Origin: an uncultured Lachnospiraceae bacterium
Lineage (GTDB): Bacteria > Bacillota > Clostridia > Lachnospirales > Lachnospiraceae
Assembly (NCBI GenBank): GCA_902775485.1
Contig: CACYMJ010000012.1
Coordinates: 1-55,028, forward strand
Length of the DNA stretch: 55,028 nucleotides
Reading direction: 5' to 3'
Below the pieces are notes generated by a model. That model did not search any database, was not told the DNA's origin, and saw nothing but the letters and a program-made list of their open reading frames with translations. The stretch's first letter is position 1. Each line of letters starts with the position of its first letter. Positions 2,220-55,028 of the stretch are shown here, one piece after another. A program made the position numbers and the translations under genes.

Positions 2220-2696
2220 TTACGACTCATTGACGAGTTTTCCGGTCATATGCTCCAAAGTGATTTCCAGACACTGCACTCTGGGAAATGCATTGGTCAG
2301 TTCCTTTTGGATGAACTCCTCATCGTCTGTGAATTTTCCTGTTATGGCCATGCATATTGCCTTGGCCTTTTCTTCATCCTCAACAAGCTTAATCCTGCCA
2401 AAGGTGATTACACTTTTTATATTAAGTGCCCACTCGCCTTCCCTGCGATACCCTTCATCATATACACAGTAACTTACTTTATCGCAGGCTTTTACAGCGT
2501 CTATCTTATGACCTTCCTTTGCTCCATGAAAATATATCTTCCCATCCTCCTCACAATACCAGTGATTCATAGGGAGCCCATAAGGATAACCATCATCACC
2601 TATAATTGAAAGAACGCCTCTCTTGGTATTCTTCAAAATCTCAATGCACTCTGAATCTGAAATCTGCTGTTTGAATCTTCTCATTTTTCTGAACAT
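2220..2696 (-). CDS. pyridoxamine 5'-phosphate oxidase-like (NimA-type) flavin protein
   Basis: About 158 residues with a split-barrel FMN-binding fold of the PNPOx-like/NimA group. Features: R-x-x-Q-x-x-S-D-x-E at the start, RGVLSIIGDDGYPYGLPMN, YFHGAKEGHKIDAVK, and YRSVI-like strand NIKSVITFGRIKLV. Such proteins bind FMN or heme and reduce small substrates; some give nitroimidazole resistance, but that cannot be claimed here. The start at 2696 (MFRKMRRFK) is chosen because GAGGTG lies 6 nt upstream. It converges on hsp20 across the terminator. Confidence 0.82.
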   Translation of the reverse strand: MFRKMRRFKQQISDSECIEILKNTKRGVLSIIGDDGYPYGLPMNHWYCEEDGKIYFHGAKEGHKIDAVKACDKVSYCVYDEGYRREGEWALNIKSVITFGRIKLVEDEEKAKAICMAITGKFTDDEEFIQKELTNAFPRVQCLEITLEHMTGKLVNES

Positions 2697-2775
2697 AACA
2701 CACCTCACATATAAGATCAGCTAAGCCGTCAAAACAACAACTGTTAAGCTTTTTGCGTCCCAGGATCATATGATC

Positions 2776-3177
2776 TCATTCTTTCGGCATGCTGTGCTGG
2801 GCAATATAAAGATCATATGTGTTCATGATCTCGGCATTTCCCTGAAGATCGGCGTAAATATAGACAAGCGTCCATTTCTTTTCGGCTGCGTCTTTCGGGG
2901 CAACCTGGCAGAGGATACAGTAATTCCTTCCAGCCACAAGCTGGGTCGCAAGAAGGGAGACAGGCGTATAATCTCCGTCAGTAAGTTTCTCTTTTGCCGT
3001 ATCAAACGCCTTCTGGGCATCCTCGGGAAGCTCCCCCGCCTCGTGTTCCGCCATCTCCCAGCCTCCAAGGAGTGCTTCCGAAGAAGGGGCAGGTTCTGCC
3101 TTTGCCTGACCTTTGCATCCGCATAATACAACTGATATGACCAAAAAAGCTGTGTAACATAACGTTTTCTTTTTCAT
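2776..3177 (-). CDS. small lipoprotein with cystatin-like domain
   Basis: A 133-residue secreted lipoprotein. The N-terminus MKKKTLCYTAFLVISVVLCG runs into a lipobox LCGC, with lipidation expected at the second Cys. The mature part carries GGWEMAEHEAGELPEDAQKA and then QLVAGRNYCILCQV, close to the Q-x-V-x-G plus following strand of cystatin-fold proteins. AGGAGGAG precedes this ATG, so the longer upstream reading frame is not used. Its ATG overlaps the stop of the PAP2 gene (ATGA, 4 nt), so it is the last gene of a membrane operon. The cystatin assignment is motif-based; inhibitor activity is not implied. Confidence 0.68.
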   Translation of the reverse strand: MKKKTLCYTAFLVISVVLCGCKGQAKAEPAPSSEALLGGWEMAEHEAGELPEDAQKAFDTAKEKLTDGDYTPVSLLATQLVAGRNYCILCQVAPKDAAEKKWTLVYIYADLQGNAEIMNTYDLYIAQHSMPKE

Positions 3178-3704
3178 TTTCCATCTCCTCCTCTGTCTGA
3201 CTTTCTTTTTAACATATCGCATATCCTGTCTGCGGCAATTCCAAACAATATCCCCAGGACTATACCGCACAAAACATCTGTGGGGTAATGCAGGAATAAA
3301 TACATTCTGCTAAATGCGATAAGCGCTGCCACTGCAAACGCCGCTATCCCGGCTTTTTTGTACTTTACAAATATCGCTGTTGCCGCTGCAAATGCCTGGG
3401 CTGAGTGTACAGACGGAAACGACGATTCAGTCGGGCGCTCGACAAGAAGCGCGAACGCCTGGTCCAAATGACACGGTCTCGGTCTGTCAAACAGGTTCTT
3501 CAGGATAAATTGACAGAACATGCTTGTAAAAACCCAGGATACAAGTACCGCTATCCCAGTAAGCCTTGTCTTCTTCGGTATCAAAAGCACCAGGCCTATT
3601 GCGAGCCACCACTGGCCGTATGATCCCGCGATTTTTGTGACTATCAGAAAGACTGTATCGAGCAGTCCGGTTCTTGGTATTGCATATAAAAACGATAATT
3701 CCAC
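3174..3704 (-). CDS. PAP2-family membrane phosphatase
   Basis: A 176-residue integral membrane phosphatase with the three PAP2 motifs: KNLFDRPRP (K-x6-RP), PSVHSAQAF (PSxH) and SRMYLFLHYPTD (SR-x5-H-x3-D). About five membrane segments. The family dephosphorylates lipid phosphates such as undecaprenyl pyrophosphate or phosphatidate; the sequence does not decide between them. It starts at GTG with AGGAG upstream, and this GTG shares one base with the TAG stop of the HXXEE gene, which suggests translational coupling. Confidence 0.9.
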   Translation of the reverse strand: MELSFLYAIPRTGLLDTVFLIVTKIAGSYGQWWLAIGLVLLIPKKTRLTGIAVLVSWVFTSMFCQFILKNLFDRPRPCHLDQAFALLVERPTESSFPSVHSAQAFAAATAIFVKYKKAGIAAFAVAALIAFSRMYLFLHYPTDVLCGIVLGILFGIAADRICDMLKRKSDRGGDGK

Positions 3705-4219
3705 TATTTTTGTCTCCTTTCCTCATACCGGTTCATAAGCACATGCGCCAGTTTAAGATTTGCAGCCACCCCGGCAATACCTGTGATAATCCCGATCAGC
3801 GCCGCCGTGTTCATATCCTGTCTCGTACGGATGAGAAGCATGACGCTCGGCAAAAACACGAGTATCGATGTAAGAAGCGACGGGATGTACTTTTTTATTG
3901 CCAAAGACTGGAGGATATGGATGATAAGGTGAACGGTAAAGGCGATAAGACCTCCGTACCAGATGCCCATGGCCCACTGCGCCCCTGTAAGTTCTGCAAG
4001 CGCACATACAGCGATGAGAAGGATAAGTTCCTCATACACGGCAACCGCAAATGCTTCGCTTGTCATTCCACTTCTGTATGCCGAAAGCGGTTTTTCGGCT
4101 ATCGGATAGCGTTTTATTATGTCCTCCCGGTTTTTATTCATGAATTCCGGAAGCCATATGATCTCCTCCATGTCATGAAATATAAAAAGGACCGGGAATA
4201 TCCAGATATATTTATCCAT
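3704..4219 (-). CDS. HXXEE-domain integral membrane protein
   Basis: A 171-residue protein with about five hydrophobic helices. Near the N-terminus it has FHDMEEIIWLPEF, the H-x-x-E-E motif that names the family. A second conserved part is TSEAFAVAVYEELILL. The motif suggests metal binding or a membrane-embedded hydrolase, but no function is established. First gene of the HXXEE-PAP2-lipoprotein operon; the three reading frames overlap end to start. Confidence 0.82.
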   Translation of the reverse strand: MDKYIWIFPVLFIFHDMEEIIWLPEFMNKNREDIIKRYPIAEKPLSAYRSGMTSEAFAVAVYEELILLIAVCALAELTGAQWAMGIWYGGLIAFTVHLIIHILQSLAIKKYIPSLLTSILVFLPSVMLLIRTRQDMNTAALIGIITGIAGVAANLKLAHVLMNRYEERRQK

Positions 4220-12244: not shown

Positions 12245-13054
12245 TCAGTCTGCCATTCGTTCGATCAGGTTGTTTACGATATCCGGAGCGTCCGTATTGG
12301 AATTGTGCCCGGCCTCCTTTATCCACTCAATTGGGATCCCCGTTTTTTTATGCCATGCTTTATTATATCTTATGCACGATCCCGCCCTGTCTTTCTCGCC
12401 GCATATAAGAAGCGCCGGACACCTGACGGCATATGGAAGATCCGCCTCCATCGCTTCTGCCAGTATCTTGAACCCGTGGCCGGAAATGCGGGCATATCTG
12501 TCCTGATCACCGTCATAAACCATCATGATCTCGTGCATGAGTCTTCTTCCGTACTCCGAAACCGCCACACCGTTCGTTCCCGACCTTAGGAGGGCTTTCC
12601 AAGGATAATGCCGGTATACCGGCTCCATTCTCTTTAGCAGCCATATCTCCAAACCCGTTACATATTCCCTCTGCAGCGGAGCCGAATCGATCGACACAAA
12701 TCCACACAGTTTATCCGGAAACAACTGGGCATATGCCTGTCCGACATACCCTCCCATCGACTGTCCAATTATGACAGGATGATCGTAGTTTTCGCGAAGC
12801 AGGATCTCGTTAAGCCACTTTGCCTTATCCATCAGATCAAAATCAAAACGAAACGGCCACGAGGAAGCGTGTCCCGGGGCATCCCACACAAAAACAGGAT
12901 ATTTATCCTCAAAGTATTCTATCTGTTTATCAAATAACCTGTGATCTGCGGTAAGTCCGGGAAGAAAAACCAGCTGCCGGCGGTTGTTTCTTGCGGCATC
13001 ATTTACCCAGTAATGTATGCATCCGCATGGTGTTTCATATATCTTCTCAACCAT
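12245..13054 (-). CDS. alpha/beta hydrolase
   Basis: A 269-residue alpha/beta-fold hydrolase: oxyanion segment FLPGLTADHRLFDKQ, FVWDAPGHASS, nucleophile elbow IIGQSMGGYVGQ (Ser in G-x-S-x-G), CPALLICGEKDRAGS with the acid residue, and EWIKEAGHNSNTDAP with the catalytic His. The triad is complete. Probably an esterase or similar cytoplasmic hydrolase; substrate unknown. The DUF4037 gene lies 36 nt upstream on the same strand. Confidence 0.9.
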   Translation of the reverse strand: MVEKIYETPCGCIHYWVNDAARNNRRQLVFLPGLTADHRLFDKQIEYFEDKYPVFVWDAPGHASSWPFRFDFDLMDKAKWLNEILLRENYDHPVIIGQSMGGYVGQAYAQLFPDKLCGFVSIDSAPLQREYVTGLEIWLLKRMEPVYRHYPWKALLRSGTNGVAVSEYGRRLMHEIMMVYDGDQDRYARISGHGFKILAEAMEADLPYAVRCPALLICGEKDRAGSCIRYNKAWHKKTGIPIEWIKEAGHNSNTDAPDIVNNLIERMAD

Positions 13055-18916: not shown

Positions 18917-18932
18917 TTGACCGTTTTGGTCA
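18917..18932. promoter_or_regulatory. palindrome TTGACC-N5-GGTCA, copy 1
   Basis: TTGACC GTTTT GGTCAT. It lies between the parB-like gene and the cyclase gene, 12 bp before the cyclase ATG, at the left boundary of the replication-partition block. Three similar copies occur at 22580, 30021 and 48379. Confidence 0.5.
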
Positions 18933-18949
18933 TTTGCGCCGGGCGGCTC

Positions 18950-19372
18950 TTAAAACATCAGATCCGGCAGCGCCTCATAAGTCTTTCCGTTTTCAGCGTA
19001 ATCCTTGGCTATAAGATTCCTGATGTACAGCGAGCCGTTTCCGCCGTATGCTTTCGAGGCAGTCCTTATCATGTCGAGTACCTCCGGTGTCATGTAAAAA
19101 GTTGCGGGCGTGCTCTTTCCTCCTCCGCGCCTCTTTGGTTCGCCGGCCGGCACCGCTTCCCTGACAGGTGTCTTTACGGGTGCCTCTTCCTCCGCCGTCT
19201 TTTCCTTTACATCCTGCACCTTTTGCCCGGGTTTTTTGGCCGCAGACTTTGCAGCTGCCGCTCTTTTTGTGGGCACGGCTCCCTTTGCGGTATTCTTTTT
19301 ATCACTTTCAGACGTTATGTCCTTTTTTATATTGTCGAATAAAGATATTGCGCTTGGTTTTGAAACAGCCAT
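18950..19372 (-). CDS. ribbon-helix-helix partition protein (ParB-like)
   Basis: A 140-residue protein directly after parA. The first 90 residues are basic and Ala/Lys/Pro-rich (KKNTAKGAVPTKRAAAAKSA), probably disordered. The C-terminus KSTPATFYMTPEVLDMIRTA and SKAYGGNGSLYIRNLIAKD is a ribbon-helix-helix domain. Small RHH proteins after ParA are the centromere-binding partner in type Ib partition systems. ATG at 19372 has AGGGGAG 6 nt upstream; another ATG two codons earlier overlaps the parA stop. Translational coupling likely. Confidence 0.75.
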   Translation of the reverse strand: MAVSKPSAISLFDNIKKDITSESDKKNTAKGAVPTKRAAAAKSAAKKPGQKVQDVKEKTAEEEAPVKTPVREAVPAGEPKRRGGGKSTPATFYMTPEVLDMIRTASKAYGGNGSLYIRNLIAKDYAENGKTYEALPDLMF

Positions 19373-19374
19373 GA

Positions 19375-20151
19375 TCATCTCCCCTTTCTTTTGATCTTCT
19401 TAAGCAATTCGTCGAGTACCTCGGCATAATCGACAGCCGCGTTTGAGCTTGGAGCCGTCTCAAACAGCGATTTTCCGACCGCCTGGGCCTTGCTTATCTC
19501 CTGACAGGTACGTATCGGTTTTTTAAACACCGGAAAATCAAGCTGCTTTCCGATCTTCGGAAGCGTGCTCCAGATCTCCTTGTGAAGCGCTTTTGTCTGG
19601 TTATAATTGTTAAGCAGCACTCCGTATACCTTAAGATCGGGATTTGTATTTTCCTTGGCATCCCTTATCGTCTTTAAAAGAGCCCCGAGACCGTCTATGG
19701 CGTATTTATCGGCCAGTATCGGGCAGATGCAACCATCTGCGGCGGTTATCGCGTTTATCATCCACGTCCCCAGCGTCGGAGGCGTATCAAAAAGGATAAA
19801 ATCATAATCATCATCTACCCCCGAAAGCTTCTTTTTAAGTATCATGTACCTGTCCATCCTGGAGTTTATCTTCGAATCTATCTCCGGAAGATCCTTGTCG
19901 CCCGGAACTATCGAACCTCGTTCGGACGTTATGATGCACTCTTTAATATCCATTTTGTCGTTAAATACATCGTAGATCGTCGGGATGTCGGTCGTATCCG
20001 ATATGAACTCACTCGTCGTGTTGCACTGCGGGTCCATGTCCACGATCAGGACCGAAAATCCGCAATACTTCATCGCATCGGCCAGGCACAGGGTCGTCGT
20101 CGTTTTGCCGACTCCTCCTTTCTGGTTCGCTATCGCTATCTTTACAGCCAC
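19375..20151 (-). CDS. parA: ParA/Soj-type partition ATPase
   Basis: A 258-residue P-loop ATPase. The deviant Walker A IANQKGGVGKTTTT has signature Lys11 and catalytic Lys16; Walker A' is VDMDPQCNTT and Walker B DYDFILFDTPP. It lacks the long N-terminal DNA-binding domain of type Ia ParA, so it belongs to the shorter chromosomal/type Ib group. ParA binds DNA in its ATP form and segregates replicon copies with a partner at a centromere. GTG start with GGGGAGG 8 nt upstream. Right of it lie the AT-rich repeats, the natural place for parS. Confidence 0.93.
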   Translation of the reverse strand: MAVKIAIANQKGGVGKTTTTLCLADAMKYCGFSVLIVDMDPQCNTTSEFISDTTDIPTIYDVFNDKMDIKECIITSERGSIVPGDKDLPEIDSKINSRMDRYMILKKKLSGVDDDYDFILFDTPPTLGTWMINAITAADGCICPILADKYAIDGLGALLKTIRDAKENTNPDLKVYGVLLNNYNQTKALHKEIWSTLPKIGKQLDFPVFKKPIRTCQEISKAQAVGKSLFETAPSSNAAVDYAEVLDELLKKIKRKGR

Positions 20152-20179
20152 TTTTATTACCTCCCCGTAAGTTTATGTG

Positions 20180-20560
20180 CTGCACACATTATATTGCCAT
20201 ATAGAGCGTGCGCTAACATTATGACATAATATAATGTATTATGCTACATTATATTTATATGTACTTTTGTATAATACAATATATTTTATTGTATGTCTAC
20301 ATAATATTTCCACATTACAACATATTATTAAAATCCATATCATAATATATTGTATTATAATGTAATATACGTCAATGTAATGTTTTATATTTTGCTATGC
20401 ATAGTTCTTATGCCATTGCCTGATCCGGTTTTATAAAATATAATAAGAGCAGGGTATACTTAATGTATCGGCAATACACATATGGCCGCATGATGTAATG
20501 TATTGCATGCTATGTGGATGTAATGTGTTATAATGTAATATAATGCGTTATGCCACGTTT
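20180..20560. repeat. AT-rich TAATGTA/ACATTA repeat region, candidate centromere
   Basis: Almost pure A+T between parA and the iterons. Copies of TAATGTA or its complement occur at about 20187, 20216, 20232, 20245, 20358, 20375, 20461, 20496, 20521 and 20531, often as longer palindromic strings such as TAATGTATTA and TAATGCGTTATG. Located upstream of a type Ib parA, this is where a parS bound by the RHH protein would lie. No ORF. Function is inferred from position. Confidence 0.6.
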
Positions 20561-20762
20561 GGTGGTAAAAACACTATCTGCAGTTTTATCAATGATCGAA
20601 CATCAGATGGCCGCCGCCGGCTGTTGTTTTATTTATATTTTAATCTACAACATATAACTTTTATTTGTTATTTAAGGGAAAACACAAAAGCCACGGATCC
20701 TTTTGATAAGCGCATCTGCAGAGTGCGACAGTTTTTTATGACGGAATGATTCGGGACATTTG

Positions 20763-21291
20763 ACGGACGATATAGGGGCAAATAAGGGAACCCCGAGGTT
20801 TTTTCTGCGGACGGATTAGGGACAAAATATTCCGTAAGATCCGGCTGCAAAGCGGCACAATAAGGATAAATAGCGGATCAAAACAGTTCAAGATACGGAC
20901 AGATTAGGGCCGGCAGCATCCCTATTGTGTCCGCCAAATACAAAAGAGCACAAAATGATGGGCCATTTAAAACGGAACAAAGGCAAACAACCCTATTTTG
21001 TCCGTAAGTTAACCTGCCGGTGTCCGTACAATAAAATTTTGTGACATTTTCACAACGCTCCATTGGCAGCAACCCTATTTTGTCCGTTGATTGATCCCTA
21101 AAATGTCCGTAAGTAACAAGCGGATACCCCTAATTTTTCCGCAGTTTGACGCGTTTTTGGTAATATTTAACCATTATCACCATATATTGACCTTTAAAAA
21201 CAAAAAATACTCAAGATATAGTATTTAACGGACCGATTAGGGTTGACATACGATTCTCAAAAGTTGTATGTTTTTAACGGACAGATTAGGG
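20763..21291. repeat. iteron array of the replication origin
   Basis: Ten close copies of the 15-mer ACGGACNRATTAGGG and one weaker copy. Forward: 20763 (weaker), 20807, 20895, 21228, 21277. Reverse: 20920, 20991, 21073, 21096, 21128; a partial TGTCCGT lies at 21021. Core ATTAGGG/CCCTAAT varies to AATAGGG or TTTAGGG. The mixed orientation, with an inverted pair at 20895/20920, is typical of Rep_3 origins. An AT-rich run at about 21155-21225 could be the melting region. No convincing DnaA box was found by eye. Confidence 0.85.
21243..21272 (+). promoter_or_regulatory. probable rep promoter inside the iterons
   Basis: TTGACA at 21243-21248 abuts the iteron ending at 21242. A weak -10 TATGTT at 21267-21272 (18-nt spacer) precedes the iteron at 21277-21291. 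Rep bound to either iteron would hide the promoter, as in autoregulated Rep_3 systems. Confidence 0.6.
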
Positions 21292-21327
21292 ACTGTTCAG
21301 GGAGTATCGGATAACAGGGGGAAATAT

Positions 21328-22518
21328 ATGGACACATCTTTATTACCGGTAGAAGAGTATCAGGACGAGAATGATATTTATGCTCGTTCTAATTTTATGA
21401 TTTCTGCCAAATATAAAAGCAGTTTGTATGCAAATCGCCTGATGGCATTGTCATTATCCAAGATAAACACAGCCAGTGAAAGTGAAGAAGGGTTTCTTAC
21501 GGTAAAGATCAAAGGCCGTGAGATCAAAAATGCATTTGGGAGCAGGTCCGGTGACTTCTTCAGGCAGCTTGACAACACTGCAAGGGACATGACCGGCCAG
21601 ACTGTAGGCTATACGGACGCGGATTCGCAGAGTTTTACGTATATCGCAGCGGTTATAAAGGCGAAATATGAAGACGGAGAGTTCGCGATAACGTTTCATA
21701 ACGAACTAAAGCCGTATCTTCAGAATCTGTCGCAGAACTATTCAACGTTTTCGCTTAAGATAATGATGAAGTGGCAGTCAACGCAGACATTCAGGTTTTA
21801 CGAGCTTTTAAAGAGCCGCATGTATCACAGGAAGAATGATTATGCACCGAACAATAACCTGTTCCGTCTGCAGTTTGATATTAATGAGCTGAAACTCTGC
21901 CTTGGAATTGTAAACGCCGAGCTTGCAGATGTTCGCAAGATCCTTAACAAGAGTAAGGGAACGCCCGAGATCTGGGCAAAGGCTGTAGAAGCATCTCCCG
22001 AAAAAACATACAGTACCTGGTATGATTTTAAGAGAAAGGTCATAGACAAGGCCACAAAGGAGATAAATGACAATCCCGAATGCGGCGTAAAGATCCATAA
22101 AGTTGAGACTTTGAAATCGGGAAAAGGCGGAAAAGTCTATGCGGTGGTCATATATGCCGAAAAAACAACACCGGGAAGCCATAAAAAGCCGGCAGTTGAT
22201 GTGGAAGAGATCGATTATGATGACCTTAGCGATCAGATCAGGGAATTGATCGGAGATATCCGTACAAAGGAGGCAAAAGCGATAGGAGAGGCCGCCAGGT
22301 GGGATATGGACAGGATCAGAAGGAACTATGAGTATTCCGAGACAAAGGATGTTGAGGACATCGTCGGATTCATGATAAAAGCCGTTAAGGAAGACTGGGC
22401 CGCAAGCGAAAAGAAGCCCCGGAAAAAGTCAGGATCACCAAAGAGCAGCGGATTTTCGAATTTTGATGAGAGAGACTATGATTATGATGAACTCATGGCA
22501 GGTCTGACCAATAAGTAA
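21328..22518 (+). CDS. Rep_3-family replication initiator (RepB-like)
   Basis: A 396-residue initiator with two winged-helix domains. The N-terminal domain runs from residue about 15: NFMISAKYKSSLYANRLMAL, then IKGREIKNAFGSRSGDFFRQ. The signature of the family follows: LSQNYSTFSLKIMMKWQST, QTFRFYELLKSRMY. The second domain covers about 160-260 (LFRLQFDINELKLCLGIVNA, TYSTWYDFKRKVIDKATKEI). A charged C-terminal tail follows. Start at 21328 with AGGGGG; the longer frame from 21268 would span the last iteron. The protein binds the iterons and melts the origin. Confidence 0.92.
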   Translation: MDTSLLPVEEYQDENDIYARSNFMISAKYKSSLYANRLMALSLSKINTASESEEGFLTVKIKGREIKNAFGSRSGDFFRQLDNTARDMTGQTVGYTDADSQSFTYIAAVIKAKYEDGEFAITFHNELKPYLQNLSQNYSTFSLKIMMKWQSTQTFRFYELLKSRMYHRKNDYAPNNNLFRLQFDINELKLCLGIVNAELADVRKILNKSKGTPEIWAKAVEASPEKTYSTWYDFKRKVIDKATKEINDNPECGVKIHKVETLKSGKGGKVYAVVIYAEKTTPGSHKKPAVDVEEIDYDDLSDQIRELIGDIRTKEAKAIGEAARWDMDRIRRNYEYSETKDVEDIVGFMIKAVKEDWAASEKKPRKKSGSPKSSGFSNFDERDYDYDELMAGLTNK

Positions 22519-22522
22519 AATG

Positions 22523-22550
22523 CAAAATGCCTGTGAAAACAGGCATTTTG
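22523..22550 (+). terminator. rho-independent terminator after rep
   Basis: Stem CAAAATGCCTG / CAGGCATTTTG with loop TGAAAA, immediately after the rep stop. The T tract is inside the stem end (TTTTG). Confidence 0.75.
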
Positions 22551-22579
22551 AGATTATAACAAAAAAGGGCAATGCCTGC

Positions 22580-22595
22580 TGACCGATACGGTCAA
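22580..22595. promoter_or_regulatory. palindrome TGACC-N5-GGTCA, copy 2
   Basis: TGACC GATAC GGTCAA, 62 bp after rep. With copy 1 at 18917 it brackets the whole par-iteron-rep block. Confidence 0.5.
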
Positions 22596-22618
22596 CGCGC
22601 ATATGCCGGAGAAACGGT

Positions 22619-22768
22619 ATGAAAAGAAAGATAGGAAAAGCGGGAATAGCACTTATATTCGGAGCGCTCTCGGTCATATTCGGAGCAGTCATAGGGACGG
22701 CTGTAAATGATACGATAGATCTGACGAGGCCGGCAAAAGAAGATGGATACGGAAAAAATAATAGCTGA
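22619..22768 (+). CDS. 49-residue single-pass membrane protein
   Basis: Reading frame of 49 codons: MKRKIGKAGIALIFGALSVI then FGAVIGTAVNDTIDLTRPA. A basic start and one hydrophobic helix (residues 8-28) with G-x3-G type spacing. A GGAG-like site (CCGGAGAAACGGT) precedes the ATG. Its end overlaps the next gene by 26 nt in another frame, which suggests coupling. No family recognised. Confidence 0.6.
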   Translation: MKRKIGKAGIALIFGALSVIFGAVIGTAVNDTIDLTRPAKEDGYGKNNS

Positions 22769-23003
22769 GCTTGATGGGATATACGGAAAAGGCAAAGGCC
22801 TGGGCATTTATACAACCATAATGCCCGGGATCATCGCGGATTTTACCGGGATATTAAATAAAGCGCGCCCCGGAGCGGTGATAAAAGAAGAGTACGGCCT
22901 GGAAGATAAAAAAGCCGTGGTATATGTCAGGGGCACAAAGCAGAAAACCGGCCTTACCGATATAAGCATCGAGATTAAAAAATATAACTTACGGACGGAT
23001 TAG
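22743..23003 (+). CDS. 86-residue protein of unknown function
   Basis: Soluble alpha/beta protein: MDTEKIIAELDGIYGKGKGL, GIYTTIMPGIIADFTGILNK, EEYGLEDKKAVVYVRGTKQK, TGLTDISIEIKKYNL. No family recognised. Its start lies inside the 49-residue gene, and its last codons and stop (22991-23003) overlap a perfect iteron. A product so close to rep may have a role in copy control or incompatibility, but this is only position-based. Confidence 0.6.
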   Translation: MDTEKIIAELDGIYGKGKGLGIYTTIMPGIIADFTGILNKARPGAVIKEEYGLEDKKAVVYVRGTKQKTGLTDISIEIKKYNLRTD

Positions 23004-23005
23004 GG
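22991..23005 (+). repeat. isolated iteron downstream of rep
   Basis: ACGGACGGATTAGGG, identical to the array consensus and 1.7 kb from the nearest array copy. It covers the stop codon of the 86-residue gene and lies 20 bp before the next start. Rep could bridge it to the array. Confidence 0.75.
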
Positions 23006-24067: not shown

Positions 24068-25099
24068 TTACTGAACCGGAAGTTCGGGATAATTGGCGAT
24101 ATCCGGACACAGAGACTCAAGGCATATCCCGCAAAGAGGCTCATCGGAGCATTCATCCCTGTAATCGTCAACGAGATGATCACAGGTCATATCGTATATA
24201 TAGTGGTAATATTCTTTTCCGCCGTCGGTGGGATGTTCGTAGTTTATTACAAGCAGACCGTTTCCGCGAAGGAACATGCCGGTTATCGTATCTTTTGGAT
24301 CGATCAGCTTACCGACTATATCATAGCCGCATATATACCCGGCATCATCCCTTGACAGGCTTGTGCCTGCGTATTCGTATACTTTGTCTTCCTCGTCGAG
24401 ATAGAAGAAGTAATAGTGCTTCCATGTGTGTCCGATCATGCACTCCATTTCATCGTCATACATCATGTCATAGCTGCTGTCCATGATCCGAAACCGGATA
24501 TCATCATCAAGATCGGTAATAACCTCACCAAGCGCCGAAAAAGGAGCTTCCGAAACTTTACCTTCATCAACGAGATAGACGTGGGTTACTATCGATGTTG
24601 CATATACCTCATCAACCATCAGATATACTGTATCTCCGAGCGTCATTGTGCGGAAGCGGTCGTAAAAACCCATAGCGCCGGATCCTGTAACCTTTTCGGC
24701 CTTTTTGTCCTTGACAAACCATACGATGCCGTTAATGAGTTTTTTTCCGTCATAATCATCGATGACTTCTCCGGTCAACGCAAAGGCTTCCTCTGATCCG
24801 TCGTTGTCAAAATCTTCCTGTGAAAAATCGATAAAATCGTACATACTGATACCGGTTTTGCTCATAAGTACATCTTTCAGGTTTATATCGGTATCGTCGG
24901 AGTCTTTTTCTTTGTCATCATCAAGCGATGTCCATTCTTTTTCCTCCGAAGGCTTTTTTTCATCCTTAGCAGGTGCATCATCCGTTTTTCCGGCTGTCTC
25001 TTTTGGCCCGCCATCCGCATCGGCTTGTTTTGCGACACCCGTACATCCGCAAAGGCATAATGACAGGATCATAAGGCATGAGAGCATCGTTTTTTTCAT
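24068..25099 (-). CDS. lipoprotein of unknown function
   Basis: About 343 residues. Signal MKKTMLSCLMILSLCLCGCT, lipobox LCGC. A long acidic and Lys-rich linker follows (KDEKKPSEEKEWTSLDDDKE). The globular part starts near residue 85 with YDFIDFSQEDFDNDGSEEAF, an EF/FG-GAP-like DxDxDGxxE loop that could bind calcium. AAGGAG lies 7 nt before the ATG; an upstream in-frame start lacks a site. Function unknown. It runs leftward, 50 bp after the rhomboid gene. Confidence 0.7.
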   Translation of the reverse strand: MKKTMLSCLMILSLCLCGCTGVAKQADADGGPKETAGKTDDAPAKDEKKPSEEKEWTSLDDDKEKDSDDTDINLKDVLMSKTGISMYDFIDFSQEDFDNDGSEEAFALTGEVIDDYDGKKLINGIVWFVKDKKAEKVTGSGAMGFYDRFRTMTLGDTVYLMVDEVYATSIVTHVYLVDEGKVSEAPFSALGEVITDLDDDIRFRIMDSSYDMMYDDEMECMIGHTWKHYYFFYLDEEDKVYEYAGTSLSRDDAGYICGYDIVGKLIDPKDTITGMFLRGNGLLVINYEHPTDGGKEYYHYIYDMTCDHLVDDYRDECSDEPLCGICLESLCPDIANYPELPVQ

Positions 25100-28312: not shown

Positions 28313-28385
28313 TGGAGTATACGGGACTTGAACCCGTGACCTCCACACTGCCAGTGTGGCGCGCTCCCAACTGCGCTAATACCCC
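28313..28385 (-). tRNA. tRNA-Ala (anticodon GGC)
   Basis: 73-nt complete cloverleaf on the minus strand. All four arms pair fully: acceptor GGGGTAT/ATACTCC, D stem GCGC/GCGC, anticodon stem CCACA/TGTGG with loop CTGGCAG, T stem ACGGG/CCCGT with loop TTCAAGT. Anticodon GGC reads GCC (alanine). The G3-U70 pair, the alanine identity element, is present. CCA is not encoded. Confidence 0.95.
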
Positions 28386-35551: not shown

Positions 35552-37861
35552 CTATATTTTGAGTTTTGACAGTGCCATGGCCATTGTTCCCATACCGGCG
35601 CTGCCGCTCCTCTTAGGTGTGCTGCTGTTGTGCGCAGGTTTATCCTTTGGCTTGGACGGCCTTTCTTTTTTGGCTCCTTCGCCGAGCATCGTAAGGGATA
35701 TACGCCCCTTCTTCTCATCAACATCAAGTACGGTCACATCGACTATGTCTCCAACAGATACGACCTCGAGGGGATGCTTAATGAATCTGTCGCACATCTG
35801 GGATATATGCACAAGACCGTCTTCATGAACGCCGATATCAACAAAAGCACCGAAGTCAATGACGTTTCTGACGGTTCCCTTTAGCTTCATGCCGGGTTTT
35901 AAGTCTTTCATATCAAGAACGTCTGAGCGAAGAGTAGGCTTCGGCATTTCGTCTCTCGGGTCCCTTGCGGGCTTCTCAAGCTCTGACAGGATATCTTTCA
36001 GGGTTATCTCACCGCAGCCGAGCTCATCCGCAAGCAACTTAAGGTCTTTGATGCCTTTCATAAAAGATCGGATGGCTTCTTCATCCTTGAGATTACAGCC
36101 TATCCTTTGAAGGAGTGCTTTTGCCTGTTTATAGGATTCCGGGTGAACCGCAGTGGAATCAAGGGGTTCGTCTCCTCCGTTTATCCTGCAGAACCCTGCG
36201 CATTGTTCATATGCCTTGGGACCGAGCTTCGCTACCTTAAGAAGCTCTGCTCTTGAGCGGAACTTCCCATTCTTCTCCCTGTAGGCGACGATATTCTTTG
36301 CAACAGTAGGAGAGATGCCGGATATATAGGACAGAAGAGAGAAAGACGCAGTATTTAGATCCACACCGACTGAGTTTACCGCATCCTCAACAACTCCCGT
36401 AAGTGTCTCGGAAAGCTTTTTCTGATCCATATCGTGCTGGTACTGGCCGACGCCTATGGACTTCGGTTCGATTTTAACAAGCTCCGACAGAGGATCTTGG
36501 ACACGTCTTGCTATAGATGCGGCACTTCTCTGTCCGACATCAAACTCCGGAGATTCCTCTGTACCGAGCTTAGAAGCTGAGTACACGCTGGCACCGGCTT
36601 CATTGGTTATGATGTAGCTGACCTTTTCAGGTATCTCTTTAAGAAGCTCGGATACTACCTGTTCTGATTCCCTTGATGCAGTGCCGTTCCCTATCGATAT
36701 AAGGGAGACTTTGTATTTTTCTATAAGAGCCTTCAGGATCTTCTTGGATTCATCGATCTTGTTATGAGGGGCGGTAGGGTAGATCACTGTTGTATCGAGT
36801 ACTTTTCCCGTTGTATCAACGATCGCCAGCTTACATCCTGTCCTGAACGCCGGATCCCATCCAAGGACAGTCTGGCCTGCGATCGGTGGTTGGAGAAGGA
36901 GCTGCATCAAGTTCTTCCCAAACACTTCAATGGCACCGTTTTCGGCCATATCGGTAAGAGAATTCCTTATCTCGCGCTCGATGGAAGGACTTATGAGACG
37001 CTTGTATGAGTCGGCTATGGCTGACTTTATGATCGGGGCAGTGTACGGGTTTTCGCTTGTGATGACCTGTTTTTCGAGGTATCCGAGGATACGCTCCTCC
37101 GGTGCAAGTACGGAAACGGAAAGGAATTTCTCAGCTTCTCCGCGATTGATCGCAAGTACTCTGTGGCCCGCGATCTTTTTGATCCCTTCTTCAAAATCAT
37201 AATAGTTCTGATAAACCGATTCCGCCTCAGCATCTTTTGCTTCTGACAAAAGCTTACCTTCATCGGCGGTGATGCGACGGATATACTCCCGGTACTGTGC
37301 GTTGTCCGATATGTCTTCGGCTATGATGTCGGATGCACCGGCTATTGCGGCGGCAACATCGATGACCTCCTTTTCTGATGCCTTTATGATATCTTCCTTG
37401 CACTCTGAAGCAGGTTCGATCTTTCCTGTGACATATTTAGAAGCTTCTTCCTCAACGGGCTTATCGGTATTCTGCCTGATGATAAACTGTGCAAGAGGAG
37501 CAAGGCCGCGCTTTTTGGCAGCCTCTGCCCTTGTTTTTTTCTTCTGTTTATATGGTCTGTACAGATCCTCGACAGTAACAAGCTTTTCAGCAGCAAGTAT
37601 GGATGTTTTCAATTCCCCGGTAAGTTTTCCCTGCTCGTCTATAAGGGTTATCACTTCCTGTTTTCTTGCCTCGAGGTTTCTAAGATATGTAAGCTTTGTA
37701 TGAAGGAGTCGAAGTTTTTCGTCGTCAAGGCTTCCTGTTGCTTCTTTCCTGTATCTTGCGATAAAGGGGATGGTGTTTCCTTCGTCAATAAGCTTTACTG
37801 CGGCCTCCACCTGAACTTTTCGAGCACCGATCTCTTCAGCTATCATTGCTATAATGTCCAT
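35552..37861 (-). CDS. tex: Tex-type RNA-binding transcription accessory protein
   Basis: A 769-residue Tex protein, related to eukaryotic Spt6. Order: N-terminal helical domain (1-200), YqgF/RNase H-like domain near 320-430 (VLGWDPAFRTGCKLAIVDTT), helix-hairpin-helix near 480-560 (SLLSYISGISPTVAKNIVAY), and a C-terminal S1 domain near 640-710 (VRNVIDFGAFVDIGVHEDGL). The tail is basic. Start at MDIIAMIAEE with AAGGA six nt upstream. The frame is open for 29 more codons upstream, and that extension includes the first codons of a yedK copy (MCGRYYLENTTETV). Confidence 0.95.
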   Translation of the reverse strand: MDIIAMIAEEIGARKVQVEAAVKLIDEGNTIPFIARYRKEATGSLDDEKLRLLHTKLTYLRNLEARKQEVITLIDEQGKLTGELKTSILAAEKLVTVEDLYRPYKQKKKTRAEAAKKRGLAPLAQFIIRQNTDKPVEEEASKYVTGKIEPASECKEDIIKASEKEVIDVAAAIAGASDIIAEDISDNAQYREYIRRITADEGKLLSEAKDAEAESVYQNYYDFEEGIKKIAGHRVLAINRGEAEKFLSVSVLAPEERILGYLEKQVITSENPYTAPIIKSAIADSYKRLISPSIEREIRNSLTDMAENGAIEVFGKNLMQLLLQPPIAGQTVLGWDPAFRTGCKLAIVDTTGKVLDTTVIYPTAPHNKIDESKKILKALIEKYKVSLISIGNGTASRESEQVVSELLKEIPEKVSYIITNEAGASVYSASKLGTEESPEFDVGQRSAASIARRVQDPLSELVKIEPKSIGVGQYQHDMDQKKLSETLTGVVEDAVNSVGVDLNTASFSLLSYISGISPTVAKNIVAYREKNGKFRSRAELLKVAKLGPKAYEQCAGFCRINGGDEPLDSTAVHPESYKQAKALLQRIGCNLKDEEAIRSFMKGIKDLKLLADELGCGEITLKDILSELEKPARDPRDEMPKPTLRSDVLDMKDLKPGMKLKGTVRNVIDFGAFVDIGVHEDGLVHISQMCDRFIKHPLEVVSVGDIVDVTVLDVDEKKGRISLTMLGEGAKKERPSKPKDKPAHNSSTPKRSGSAGMGTMAMALSKLKI

Positions 37862-37900
37862 AATAAATCCTTTCTTCGTGTGTCCGGCTACCGTTTCTGT

Positions 37901-37984
37901 TGTGTTTTCCAGATAATAACGGCCGCACATAAAGATCACCGTTATCATTATAACTTATAAAATGTCATGGGGCATCTGCGGATT
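37901..37984. repeat. 84-bp duplicated segment, copy B (ahead of tex)
   Basis: About 92% identical to 34262-34345. It carries the yedK leader and first codons (MCGRYYLENT), which stay open and in frame with tex, so a transcript from this copy could give an extended Tex beginning with Met-Cys. Confidence 0.85.
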
Positions 37985-39237: not shown

Positions 39238-39324
39238 ATAGAGTTTTTTGCCGAAAGAGAAGGGCATGAGCAGGGGAGGGATTAATTCCGTCTCACAATC
39301 TGTCGGCCGGAAGGAAGAAAAATG
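39238..39324 (+). pseudogene. chimeric relic of the ArsC-like gene region
   Basis: The 18-mer GAGTTTTTTGCCGAAAGA at 39241-39258 matches 34987-35004 exactly (21 bp with the preceding ATA). It then continues as a copy of 35129-35190 inside the ArsC-like gene. The relic reads KEKGMSRGGINSVSQSVG against KEKGMSKGEFTSVAQSVG. The two pieces, about 130 bp apart in the original, are joined at GAAAGA. It ends in a stop just at the start of thiN. Confidence 0.7.
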
Positions 39325-39951
39325 AAACCTGATATAGCTATCGTGGCAGGCGGATCATGCGATCTGTCACTTTACAAAGACATATTGGCGGATGCATTTG
39401 TCATCGGTGCCGATCGGGGAGCCCTGTATCTTGCCGAGAGCGGCTATAAGATCGATATTGCCGTTGGTGACTTTGATTCCGTCTCAGAGTCAGAGATGGA
39501 GAAGATATGCAAAAGTACCGGAGATCTTGACCGGCTTGTTCCGGAAAAAGATGAGACTGATCTTGAACATGCCTTAAAGAGAGCCCTTCGTCTTGCCGGG
39601 GTGATACATATATTTGGTGCGACGGGAACGAGACTTGACCAGACATTTTCCGCGATCAATCTTCTGAAACTGTGTCATGATAACCACCGGGAAGCTTATA
39701 TCTATGACAGAAACAACCGTATACGTCTTGTTGAGGGCCATGCGGTGATAAGGAAGGGGCGATACCGCTATGTATCGCTTATCCCATATGGTGACATCCT
39801 GGTAAATGTATCCTTAAGGGGATTTAAATACAGCGGAGAGCATATAACTCTCGAAAGAAGATCATCTCTTGGCATCAGTAATGAGATAACAGGGGATGAA
39901 GCCGAGATAGAGTGCAGAGGATACCTCTATGTATTCGAGTCGGAGGACTGA
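39322..39951 (+). CDS. thiN: thiamine diphosphokinase
   Basis: A 209-residue thiamine pyrophosphokinase, which makes thiamine diphosphate from thiamine and ATP. Signatures: AFVIGADRGALYLAESG, VGDFDSVSESEMEKI, VPEKDETDLEHALKRAL, and GATGTRLDQTFSAINLL. The C-terminal thiamine-binding sandwich follows (GDILVNVSLRGFKYSGEHIT). AAGGAAG precedes the ATG; the leader includes the ArsC-like relic. No TPP riboswitch was seen. Confidence 0.93.
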   Translation: MKPDIAIVAGGSCDLSLYKDILADAFVIGADRGALYLAESGYKIDIAVGDFDSVSESEMEKICKSTGDLDRLVPEKDETDLEHALKRALRLAGVIHIFGATGTRLDQTFSAINLLKLCHDNHREAYIYDRNNRIRLVEGHAVIRKGRYRYVSLIPYGDILVNVSLRGFKYSGEHITLERRSSLGISNEITGDEAEIECRGYLYVFESED

Positions 39952-47056: not shown

Positions 47057-47200
47057 CCTGTCTTGATAATTTTTTATATCCATGACAGGATCATCCCCGG
47101 AATGAAAAAAACAGATGTGTCATGGCATGGAGAGGGTTTGGGTCAGAGACGGCCCGGACATGCGGAACGGGACGGTTACGCTATCCGGGATAAATAGTTA

Positions 47201-47230
47201 TTGCGTTAAATCTTAGTTTAATGTTATAAT
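47201..47230 (+). promoter_or_regulatory. candidate promoter of the recombinase gene
   Basis: TTGCGT at 47201-47206, 18-nt spacer, TATAAT at 47225-47230, 29 bp before the ATG. A perfect -10 and fair -35. Confidence 0.6.
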
Positions 47231-47258: not shown

Positions 47259-48335
47259 ATGGGGGAAAATTCCGCATATTACAAAAGCAAAGACAGATCA
47301 AAGCGCGAACTCATAAACAGGATGAAGGCGCAGCTTCCGCAGCATACACATTCCTATATAGAAGAGATCCTTCTGAAATACCAGATCAACACGGTATATA
47401 TGTATGTCTATGACCTGACGGTTTTTTACAAATACCTAAGAGACAATAACAGCTTATATAAAGACCTGGAGCTAAGAGACATTCCCTTTGAAGCGATCGA
47501 TCAGCTTAGGGCAGCTGACTTCAACGAATATCAGAACAAACTCGCTGAAGGCGATAACGAGGGTCGCAAGGGTGAAAAATCTCGTGCGGTCGCACGGAAA
47601 ATGGCGTCTGTGCGCAATTTCTTTTCCTATCAGGAAAGAATGGGCTATATGGATCATGATCCGACGCTTAAAGCGGCCAAAAAACGAAGGGAGATCGAGA
47701 ATGAGATCTTCCGGTTGGATTCCGACGAGGTAAAACAGCTTATAGACGCTGTTACAAACGTAAATGTCGGCAGCCAGCACTCGAAAATCTTGTCGGAATG
47801 CACTGCTAAGCGTGATTTAGCGATAATAACGCTCTTGCTAAATACCGGGATCCGGGTATCCGAGTGCGCCGGGATCGACATGGATGATGTCAATTTCAAC
47901 ACAAATACGATCACTATCGTAAGAAAAGGCGGAAAATCGTCGGATATGTACATTGGAGAGGCGGTCAGAAATACGCTGAGGGATTATATCAACACAGAAC
48001 GCCCTACTCTCCTGTCTTACGACAATGAAAAGGAGTCTGCACTGTTCATATCCCGCAAACATACCCGTTTATCCGTAAGAAGCATTCAGTATATGGTCGA
48101 AAAATACGGGAAGAATCTCGAACTCGGTCGGTCACTGAGCCCTCACAAACTCAGGAAGACATACGGTACCGCCCTCTACAACAAAACCGGCGACATCTAT
48201 ATGGTCGCAGATGTTCTCGGGCATAAAGATGTCAATACAACGGTCAGGCACTATGCCGCCATGGAGGAAAAGCATAAGCAACAGGCAGCGCAGATCGATA
48301 TCTACGGACTTGAATCCGATGATCGGGATCAATAA
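47259..48335 (+). CDS. tyrosine recombinase (XerC/XerD-like)
   Basis: A 358-residue site-specific recombinase. N-terminal SAM-like domain (residues about 25-130, VYDLTVFYKYLRDNNSLYKD). The catalytic domain holds Arg199 (NTGIRVSE), Lys224 (RKGGKSS), His296 and Arg299 (SPHKLRKTYG), His322 (LGHKD) and Tyr332 (VRHYAAM). All six active residues are present, so it should be active. It may resolve replicon dimers or mobilise DNA. An inverted repeat lies 40 bp downstream. The ribosome site AGGGGG is 13 nt away, weak. Confidence 0.9.
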   Translation: MGENSAYYKSKDRSKRELINRMKAQLPQHTHSYIEEILLKYQINTVYMYVYDLTVFYKYLRDNNSLYKDLELRDIPFEAIDQLRAADFNEYQNKLAEGDNEGRKGEKSRAVARKMASVRNFFSYQERMGYMDHDPTLKAAKKRREIENEIFRLDSDEVKQLIDAVTNVNVGSQHSKILSECTAKRDLAIITLLLNTGIRVSECAGIDMDDVNFNTNTITIVRKGGKSSDMYIGEAVRNTLRDYINTERPTLLSYDNEKESALFISRKHTRLSVRSIQYMVEKYGKNLELGRSLSPHKLRKTYGTALYNKTGDIYMVADVLGHKDVNTTVRHYAAMEEKHKQQAAQIDIYGLESDDRDQ

Positions 48336-54763: not shown

Positions 54764-55028
54764 TTATATCCCCATCTCTTCCAGAATATCAACCGCGGAT
54801 TCTACCATTCTCGGACAAATATCCTTAAAAAGACCTTTCTCCCGGGCATAGAGCATCCCCTCTTCTGAGGATATGTCACAGCCAAGTATATCCCTGCAGA
54901 CATATGAGGCATTCTTTTCTTTGAATCTGTCCATAAACTCAGCAGCCTTGGGATAAGCAGTTGCTTTATAGTCGGGTCCGTCTCCGTATTTCAACCCGAT
55001 CACCATGATTGCCCCGGATACAGCACCA
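54764..55028 (-). CDS. C_GCAxxG_C_C family protein (partial, N-terminus outside window)
   Basis: The last 88 codons of a redox-type protein. GAVSGAIMVIGLKYGDGPDY is the post-motif region after the expected G-C-A-x-x-G; VCRDILGCDIS gives a C-x5-C pair and LFKDICPRMVESAVDILEEM the last Cys. The first Cys motif lies beyond the edge. Such proteins are often next to ferredoxins and EFR1. The frame is open to the window end. Confidence 0.8.
   Translation of the reverse strand, partial: GAVSGAIMVIGLKYGDGPDYKATAYPKAAEFMDRFKEKNASYVCRDILGCDISSEEGMLYAREKGLFKDICPRMVESAVDILEEMGI

Follow-up and report, generated by a model that had tools for sequence, protein, structure and literature searches.

A Rep_3 iteron origin, a ParA partition locus and a putative recombinase-associated terminus on a probable ~55-kb secondary replicon of an uncultured Lachnospiraceae bacterium

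The window analyzed here is a whole contig of 55,028 bp from an uncultured gut bacterium of the Lachnospiraceae, whose assembly is 84% complete. One part of it holds genes and repeats characteristic of plasmid replication and partition:

18950..19378, minus strand: putative RHH centromere-binding (ParB-like) protein, 142 aa, directly downstream of parA
19375..20151, minus strand: parA, Walker-type ATPase without N-terminal HTH, 258 aa (PF13614)
20152..20560, no strand: AT-rich intergenic stretch (72% AT), candidate centromere
20561..20740, no strand: stretch beside the iterons (63% AT), candidate unwinding element
20741..21291, no strand: array of 15-bp iterons at 20741+, 20763+, 20807+, 20895+, 20920-, 20991-, 21073-, 21096-, 21128-, 21228+ and 21277+ (matrix scan; conservation in the relative G003)
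21243..21272, plus strand: predicted rep promoter, TTGACA-18-TATGTT (-35 and flanking iterons conserved in G003)
21328..22518, plus strand: rep, Rep_3 initiator, 396 aa (PF01051, PF21205 and the family profile)
22991..23005, plus strand: distant downstream iteron (matrix scan)

The Rep_3 assignment made in the initial annotation holds, since both Pfam domains, PF01051 (E 2.4e-21) and PF21205 (E 2.6e-07), score above cut-off. The start at 21328 agrees with the N-terminus of a relative's Rep, and the Rep of G003 is 87% identical to that of the window. The Rep3_N and Rep3_C winged helices were both matched by 14 of 14 Reps in our alignment, and a profile of these sequences found solved Rep_3-type initiators, including 1rep, 2nra (PI protein) and 1hkq; the window Rep alone, as a single-sequence query against the PDB, gave no match. 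A scan of IMG/VR with Rep found no relatives. Comparison with known Lachnospiraceae secondary replicons, which had been proposed as a check, found homologous Reps on closed plasmids of 186-361 kb (24-33% identity in the four measured); thus, replicating relatives exist.

Searching the window with a 17-mer, allowing up to 3 mismatches, gave 7 matches where 0.21 were expected, a number reached in 0 of 100 shuffles. The copies so found were used to build a matrix, which at a score of at least 19 identified 11 copies in both orientations, ten at 20763-21291 and one at 22991-23005, in agreement with the eleven 15-bp iterons of mixed orientation first described. The iteron at 20741 is weaker (16.8), and marginal matches at 20774, 21288 and 22229 (14.6-16.2) were left out of the count. 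Eight iterons in G003 hold their spacing, with a constant 12-bp offset relative to the window, and between 20895 and 21327 identity to G003 is 87.5% within iterons and 65% between them. G003 also has two iterons immediately downstream of rep. The window 15-mer is kept in G003 only, being absent near rep in the 11 other Rep regions scanned.

The predicted rep promoter is indeed bracketed by iterons, lying between those at 21228-21242 and 21277-21291. The promoter match weighs little by itself, because the region has 19 promoter-like matches where shuffles give 9.4. Given the anatomy of iterons and promoter, autoregulation and handcuffing are expected: Rep would repress its own promoter through the two bracketing iterons, and pairing of iteron-bound origins would limit over-initiation, with the distant iteron at 22991 perhaps assisting. 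Rep monomers bound to the iterons would melt the AT-rich side, where an AT-rich block near 20620-20680 aligns by eye with G003. DnaA boxes are common, though not universal, at Rep_3 origins. No strict box (TTWTNCACA) occurs within 20-23 kb, the nearest being at 24819; a box with one mismatch, at 21046-21054, is conserved in G003 as judged by eye.

In type Ib partition systems, a ParA without an N-terminal HTH has a small RHH partner encoded downstream and centromere repeats upstream of its gene. The window ParA (PF13614, E 4.7e-51) has its P-loop at the N-terminus, lacks the HTH and is 89% identical in contig C19 of G003. The 142-aa partner has no Pfam match at 0.001 and no NCBIfam match at 0.01. 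Its C-terminal 60 residues are near-invariant across the two species compared (window and G003), and a low-confidence structural model (mean pLDDT 53.5) places two helices after an unstructured tail, so that compatibility with an RHH fold is plausible. Upstream of parA, the segment 20152-20560 is a plausible centromere, 41% identical to G003. It had been described as an AT-rich repeat region; the AT-richness stands, but its 6- to 8-mer repeats stay at or below the 95th percentile obtained from shuffles. ParA and its small partner would sort the copies of the replicon. By the sequence evidence assembled here, the replication block is real: a predicted Rep_3 iteron origin beside a ParA partition locus.

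GC skew, a further check proposed initially, turns positive at the iterons and reverts at 48.6 kb. A two-arc fit places the origin at 20.4 kb, at the iterons, and the terminus at 48.6 kb, the arms measuring 28.2 and 26.8 kb. Blocks of three sizes were permuted 1000 times each, and no permutation reached the skew amplitude. Third-position skew tracks the arm rather than the gene strand: GC3 skew on the plus strand is -0.141 for minus-strand and -0.151 for plus-strand genes of the left arm, and +0.051 for plus-strand and +0.147 for minus-strand genes of the right arm. Among 14 contigs with a convincing Rep, all 12 that were measured have their cumulative-skew minimum upstream of rep, 0.1-3.4 kb before its start, which is weak evidence because in 7 of the 12 a contig end is no more than 5 kb away from rep. 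In four closed plasmids and the window treated as a circle, the skew origin lies 0.9-3.4 kb from rep in every case. The chromid of B. fibrisolvens INBov1 is likewise described as switching skew at repA, parB and hbs (PMC6249431).

An end overlap of 15-399 bases was looked for and not found, both in the window and in 12 contigs of relatives (one examined in part). The contig ends cut two different genes, both on one strand and in DNA of like skew; the end sequences occur in the assembly only at the contig's own ends, an observation that neither proves nor excludes a circle. Because the skew flips give two near-equal arms, the contig is probably almost the entire replicon. Taking the evidence together, we think it quite likely that the window represents almost all of a circular secondary replicon of ~55 kb, a candidate circle with a Rep_3/iteron origin, a putative XerS-like/dif-like terminus and a ParA locus.

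Alternatively, the contig could be a piece of a secondary replicon of at least 100 kb, its equal arms being coincidental. The closed Lachnospiraceae relatives are of that order (186-361 kb), and the lack of end overlap and the incomplete assembly fit such a reading; nor is arm symmetry required, since the arms of pCY360 and of the Roseburia plasmid are very unequal. However, DNA missing at the junction would enter one replichore, yet the two arms differ by no more than 1.4 kb, and both genes interrupted by the contig ends share a strand and a skew. We consider a larger replicon rather unlikely, while giving it appreciable weight.

The candidate ~55-kb replicon carries three genes of chromosomal type, all reported initially and all found on the contig:

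28313..28385, minus strand: tRNA-Ala(GGC), the sole GGC copy found in the 84% assembly
35552..37948, minus strand: tex, the sole Tex_YqgF match in the assembly
39322..39951, plus strand: thiN, thiamine pyrophosphokinase (TPK), the sole match in the assembly

The tRNA is the only Rfam match at gathering cut-offs. Such cargo would also suit a plasmid backbone that had inserted into the chromosome and whose Rep had decayed or fallen silent, and no dnaA by which a chromosomal origin could be located was found in the assembly. Against integration, Rep, the iterons and ParA are intact and conserved; two skew flips in 55 kb, one of them on the iterons, are unexpected inside a chromosome arm; and only rep, parA and the partner, 3 of 67 ORFs, are common to the Rep contig of G003. 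We regard integration as very improbable. The contrary case named initially was a main chromosome with dnaA nearby and a dead Rep; no dnaA match is present on the contig. As none was found elsewhere in the 84% assembly, the main origin cannot be placed. Matches to the DnaA family occur in 35 of the 37 genomes of the genus, at full strength in only 16, those of the rest being weak or absent. A genus-wide replacement of DnaA by this origin was considered and is not supported, given the 16 genomes with a full-strength match.

The suggestion of a chromid or megaplasmid is weakened by these data. Plasmid-type replication and partition, one criterion for a chromid, are present, and the GC content (45.5% against 46.3% in a chromosome sample, thus within 0.8%) is chromosome-like, but the skew geometry fits a circle of ~55 kb and the dinucleotide signature deviates: the distance to the chromosome sample, which omits one outlying piece (L153), is 50.9 compared with 16.5-26.7 for 7 chromosomal pieces of the same size, or about twice. 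Megaplasmid size is unlikely. The cargo appears chromosome-type, and the replicon is a candidate chromid. In all five relatives that have both, the GGC tRNA lies on a contig, possibly chromosomal, other than that of rep. Among the papers cited here, the smallest Lachnospiraceae chromid is PxyII at 88,942 bp (PMC7523725), and smaller elements have also been called chromids in another phylum (PMC4373377). Should the circle close at ~55 kb and hold the only tRNA-Ala(GGC), it would be smaller than the Lachnospiraceae chromids so cited (88,942 bp and up).

The end of Rep contains a further element, on which the initial annotation was silent:

22453..22494, plus strand: codons for the tail F..F..R.YDY..L at the Rep C-terminus, also in a host DnaD-like protein

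This end peptide is common to Rep and a host DnaD-like protein that is encoded beside a DnaI-like ATPase. In a six-frame search, a stop follows each of the 18 distinct matches to the motif after 5-23 residues; Reps account for 11 of them and DnaD-like proteins for 7. In B. subtilis, the AAA+ domain of DnaI is bound by the DnaB protein through its C-terminal tail (PMC13326638). The sharing of the tail with a protein encoded beside a DnaI-like ATPase suggests that Rep recruits the helicase loader; a DnaI-type loader brought in by the tail would let forks depart bidirectionally.

At the opposite skew flip lie two more features, likewise additional to the earlier description:

47200..47227, no strand: predicted dif-like site, two 11-bp arms around a 6-bp spacer, 31 bp upstream of the recombinase gene
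47259..48335, plus strand: XerS-like single tyrosine recombinase, 358 aa (PF00589, E 1e-36), at the skew terminus

The recombinase scores 183 bits against the XerS equivalog model, below the cut-off of 267, and its midpoint is 0.8 kb from the skew terminus. It could be an ordinary mobile-element integrase, with the 28-bp inverted repeat being its promoter or due to chance. Plasmids often carry tyrosine recombinases, 3770 records matching at 1e-5. Symmetry of the site is weak evidence by itself, because, when up to 3 mismatches are allowed, the window has 99 inverted repeats of the 11-6-11 form, counting the dif-like one. Single-strand folding of the repeat is ordinary (z -0.85), two of six matches to the pattern in the genus adjoin toxin-antitoxin-like genes instead of a recombinase, and the unrelated sequences L043 and L107 come as close to the window site (7 mismatches) as does the site of G007. 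Against this, sites of the same form lie upstream of 4 of 5 such recombinase genes, the window counted, with compensating arm changes: in the four sequences, 93.2% of cells are paired, compared with 29.5-50% when slid. A reversed control pattern had 0 matches in 37 genomes. Moreover, the skew terminus lies 0.8-5.1 kb from a tyrosine recombinase in all four examined Lachnospiraceae Rep_3 replicons with such a gene, irrespective of their arm lengths (combined p ~1e-4, post hoc), and in G010, G029, G034, G017 and G000:C1 the distance from XerS-like genes to the skew maximum is 0.03-7.3 kb. The searched pattern is missing, however, at the homologous gene of G010, and the XerS-like gene of pCY360 is 1.5 kb away from rep and remote from the antipode. 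Contig C1 of the same assembly as the window carries another XerS-like gene (38% identity), and IMG/VR scanned with the recombinase gave no relatives. An ordinary integrase seems improbable to us. With a terminus module, forks would meet near 48.6 kb, and the replicon would resolve dimers with a recombinase and a dif-like site of its own.

Rep_3 origins are well known; to our knowledge, neither helicase loading by such origins in Firmicutes nor terminus-setting in secondary replicons is settled. Tentatively, and as a possibility that we hold to be clearly below even, the replicon may behave as a miniature chromosome in which a host-type Rep tail loads the helicase and a resident recombinase with a private dif-like site fixes both the terminus and the choice between uni- and bidirectional replication. 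The position of the recombinase locus would then make replication bidirectional (window, pCY186) or almost unidirectional (pCY360, Roseburia p_831b). The tail shared with the DnaD-like protein and the pattern of a recombinase at the terminus make helicase loading and terminus-setting testable with small constructs.

The window resembles Rep_3 iteron plasmids (F RepE, R6K pi, pPS10 RepA and staphylococcal pSK639) in having WH1 and WH2 domains and iterons upstream of or around the rep promoter, but differs in its own 15-mer, the C-terminal Rep peptide shared with a host DnaD-like protein and the lack of a strict DnaA box. The four measured Butyrivibrio and Roseburia plasmids, pCY186, pCY360, pNP243 and p_831b, likewise have homologous Rep_3 initiators with rep at the skew origin, and pNP243 and p_831b also carry chromosome-type cargo. 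However, these plasmids are of 186-361 kb, whereas the window is ~55 kb with nearly equal arms, and pNP243 and pCY186 have ParB/Spo0J-type partners in place of the small RHH-like one. The chromids BPc2, BhuII, PxyII and pINBov266 are also larger, at 89-302 kb as published. In the XerS/difSL system of streptococci and lactococci, the source (PMC5357621) likewise describes a single recombinase of ~356 aa with its site immediately adjacent, and in the window the predicted site adjoins the gene at the putative replication terminus. Here, however, the recombinase is on a secondary replicon and scores below the XerS cut-off, and the predicted site spans 28 bp, including a spacer of 6, compared with 31 bp and a spacer of 11 in difSL. 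In Pseudoalteromonas chromids (ori2/dif2), the position of the dif region accompanies uni- or bidirectional replication, as may be the case here; the cited portion of that report (PMC7858055) names XerC and XerD and does not mention a chromid-borne recombinase, whereas the replicon in the window carries its own.

The product of rep (21328-22518) matched both Rep3_N and Rep3_C above the cut-off in profile searches, and a profile made from 14 Reps retrieved solved replication initiators (11 sequences, 1rep, 2nra and 1hkq included), with one designed repeat protein among these 11 structure matches. The nearest named relative of Rep comes from reindeer, on a contig assigned to an uncultured Lachnospiraceae bacterium. 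On contig C19 of G003, one of 37 genomes examined from the genus, the counterparts of Rep and ParA are 87% and 89% identical to the window proteins. The ParA assignment is clear; profile searches found no family match for its 142-aa partner, for which a structure model of low confidence predicts an unstructured tail and two helices. A 17-mer search for iterons returned 7 matches against 0.21 expected, and a matrix trained on the iteron copies found 11 strong matches and one weaker. Comparison with G003 is a better iteron test than motif counting. Eight iterons are found there from -445 to -63, each displaced by the same 12 bp relative to its counterpart in the window, and over 20895-21327 the identity of the two sequences is 105/120 inside iterons versus 204/313 between them. 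The three left-most iterons of the window have no matrix match in G003. The block described in the initial annotation is real, and its Rep_3 reading holds. Downstream of rep the window has one iteron (22991) and G003 has two, an arrangement reminiscent of control iterons in P1 and F. The 15-mer was not found near rep in 11 other Rep regions scanned; G018 has a single weak match 13 kb away from rep. What is new here is the tail of Rep, a proposed terminus module, and the cross-replicon pattern that this module suggests.

Weak Rep matches in six genomes (G002, G010, G020, G022, G025 and G033) were to proteins with only the C-terminus in common, all of which adjoin a weak DnaA-family match. The G010 protein is DnaB_2 (PF07261, DnaD-like) and its neighbor a DnaI/IstB-like ATPase; G025 has the same arrangement (two of six genomes scanned). 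A scan of about 5.95 million residues of six-frame translation (overlapping loci) gave 18 distinct matches to the shared peptide F..F..R.YD[YF]..[LM], all placed 5-23 residues ahead of a stop: 11 in Reps and 7 in other proteins (the six weak-match proteins and one in locus L105). Ten of the 14 aligned Reps match it exactly, three are degenerate (loci L011 and L012, and the Butyrivibrio plasmid pNP243), and one entry was truncated ahead of the tail. Rep and DnaD-like genes are over-represented in these loci, so it is the lack of chance matches, rather than the tally, that gives the peptide its weight. According to PMC13326638, the DnaB protein of B. subtilis binds the AAA+ domain of DnaI through its C-terminal tail, and PMC5703833 describes a staphylococcal RepA_N initiator that resembles DnaD. 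We infer that the Rep tail would recruit the helicase loader, which would fit the absence of a strict DnaA box from 20-23 kb. Across the genus, a full-strength DnaA match was present in only 16 of the 37 genomes (18 matches); the others had weak matches, one of which proved on checking to be a DnaI/IstB-like ATPase, or none (G019 and the window's own assembly, G000). Some genomes without a full match are near complete (G011, 98%; G016, 97%; G009, 94%).

Cumulative GC skew drops to 20.3 kb, climbs to approximately 48.6 kb and drops again. A two-arc fit gave arms of 28.2 and 26.8 kb, and the amplitude was reached in none of 1000 permutations with blocks of 1, 2 or 3 kb. Third-position skew was -0.141 and -0.151 in the left arm and +0.051 and +0.147 in the right, irrespective of gene strand; since it goes with the arm and not the strand, replication, not transcription, accounts for the skew. 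This profile is most simply read as that of a circle that would be only slightly longer than the contig. Of the two types initially proposed, a chromid is a candidate and megaplasmid size is unlikely. Each end of the window interrupts a gene, both being on the same strand (3-338 and 54764-55027, by eye GNAT and C_GCAxxG_C_C-like), and we therefore guess that some hundred bases are absent between them.

The window is contig C12 in full (55,028 bp); its assembly comprises 2.33 Mb in 61 contigs and is 83.85% complete. The window carries the only GGC copy of tRNA-Ala among the tRNAs read (of 35 matches, 30 in loci and 2 seen in neighboring loci), and no close copy of it turned up when the rest of the assembly was searched at the DNA level. 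For tex and thiN, the whole assembly gave a single match apiece. In all five relatives with both, the GGC tRNA was not on the rep contig (ARAGORN, 21 of 30 loci), and tex was on another contig than rep in 10 of 10. Three others (G021, G032 and G036) have thiN on the Rep contig, as a distant copy with 28-29% identity. Because 16% of the genome is missing, the sole copies are suggestive only. In G021:C42, G036:C307 and G032:C42, a short distance downstream of rep are thiN and a homolog of the window ORF at 1706-2149. Of the 67 ORFs in the window, only 3 recur on the Rep contig of G003; the cargo is thus exchanged while the backbone stays, which agrees with the gene shuttling reportedly proposed by Yeoman et al. 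in 2011 for B. proteoclasticus. A 20-kb cargo stretch has matches on many different contigs in nine relatives. Elsewhere in the assembly, locus L153 (G000:C5:1-15000) has a dinucleotide signature at a distance of 122 from the remaining assembly, versus 14-38 in the other 15 pieces, and is possibly foreign or misbinned DNA.

The proposed terminus module has two elements:

47259-48335, + strand: recombinase of 358 aa; closest NCBIfam model XerS, score under the cut-off
47200-47227, no strand: dif-like inverted repeat of 28 bp (11-6-11), 31 bp ahead of the recombinase gene

The R-K-HxxR-H-Y residues of the recombinase are present by eye in the alignment. A tree of 25 genes places it in a clade with genes of G007, G010 and G014 (supports 0.985-0.998), separate from the remaining XerS-like genes of the genus, one of which G000 has on contig C1. 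Homologous genes in G004, G014 and G007 have a site of the same form upstream, with 4, 6 and 7 mismatches to that of the window; 7 mismatches are also reached in unrelated sequence, twice in about 2 Mb (L043 and L107); hence position and symmetry are what support the G007 site. Among the four sites, both sides have changed in 4 of 11 pairs, and pairing holds in 93.2% of cells, with G-T counted as a pair. A site-derived pattern matched six times in the 37 genomes and its reversed control never; as it was built from four of the six, independent evidence is limited to the two extra matches, beside small toxin-antitoxin-like genes, and the empty control. These two dif-like sites of the replicon type, at 399-422 of G003:C29 (L204) and 12442-12465 of G032:C194 (L200), have no visible recombinase, and such a setting is reminiscent of the dif modules of other plasmids. 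L204 also contains, by eye, the end of another Rep_3 gene.

For the fifth gene of this type, in G010 (contig C39, ~233.1-234.2 kb), a site of the searched pattern was not found. At 1e-30 the gene is the only XerS-like match of that genome, and only 25 bp separate it from the skew maximum (220 kb of the 333-kb contig measured), as if it had replaced the usual XerS-like gene. Other XerS-like genes (G029, G034, G017 and G000:C1) are 1.3-7.3 kb from a skew maximum. The skew maximum lies within the replicon-type gene itself on G007:C67, G014:C75 and G004:C151, though the contigs end close by.

The window was compared with four complete Lachnospiraceae plasmids with homologous Reps. In all five replicons rep is 0.9-3.4 kb from the skew origin (combined p 3e-5, uniform placement); PMC6249431 likewise places the skew origin of the B. 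fibrisolvens INBov1 chromid at rep. In the four with a tyrosine recombinase, the distance from its middle to the skew terminus is 0.8 kb (window), 5.1 kb (pCY186), 1.0 kb (pCY360) and 1.7 kb (p_831b), with arms of 28/27, 111/75, 4.6/357 and 27/216 kb, respectively. Combining the four gives a p of 1e-4, and leaving the window out gives 4e-4, in a test devised post hoc, once pCY186 and pCY360 had been seen. The p_831b gene is a different recombinase, since tblastn with the window's XerS-like protein gave no match to it. The plasmid gene tables used are incomplete. A second recombinase annotation, of 188 aa, stands at 55.9 kb in pCY360, which also has serine recombinases. For pNP243 (arms 153/90 kb), neither the XerS-like search nor the gene table gave such a gene. 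In pCY360 (NC_014389), skew is positive for only 4.6 kb around rep (2658-3860) and negative for the remaining 357 kb, and the majority of genes are on one strand; its replication looks almost unidirectional, ending beside its recombinase. In Pseudoalteromonas, uni- or bidirectional replication goes with the dif2-ori2 distance, according to Xie et al. (PMC7858055); the replicons compared here show a similar kind of pattern, with replicon-borne recombinases.
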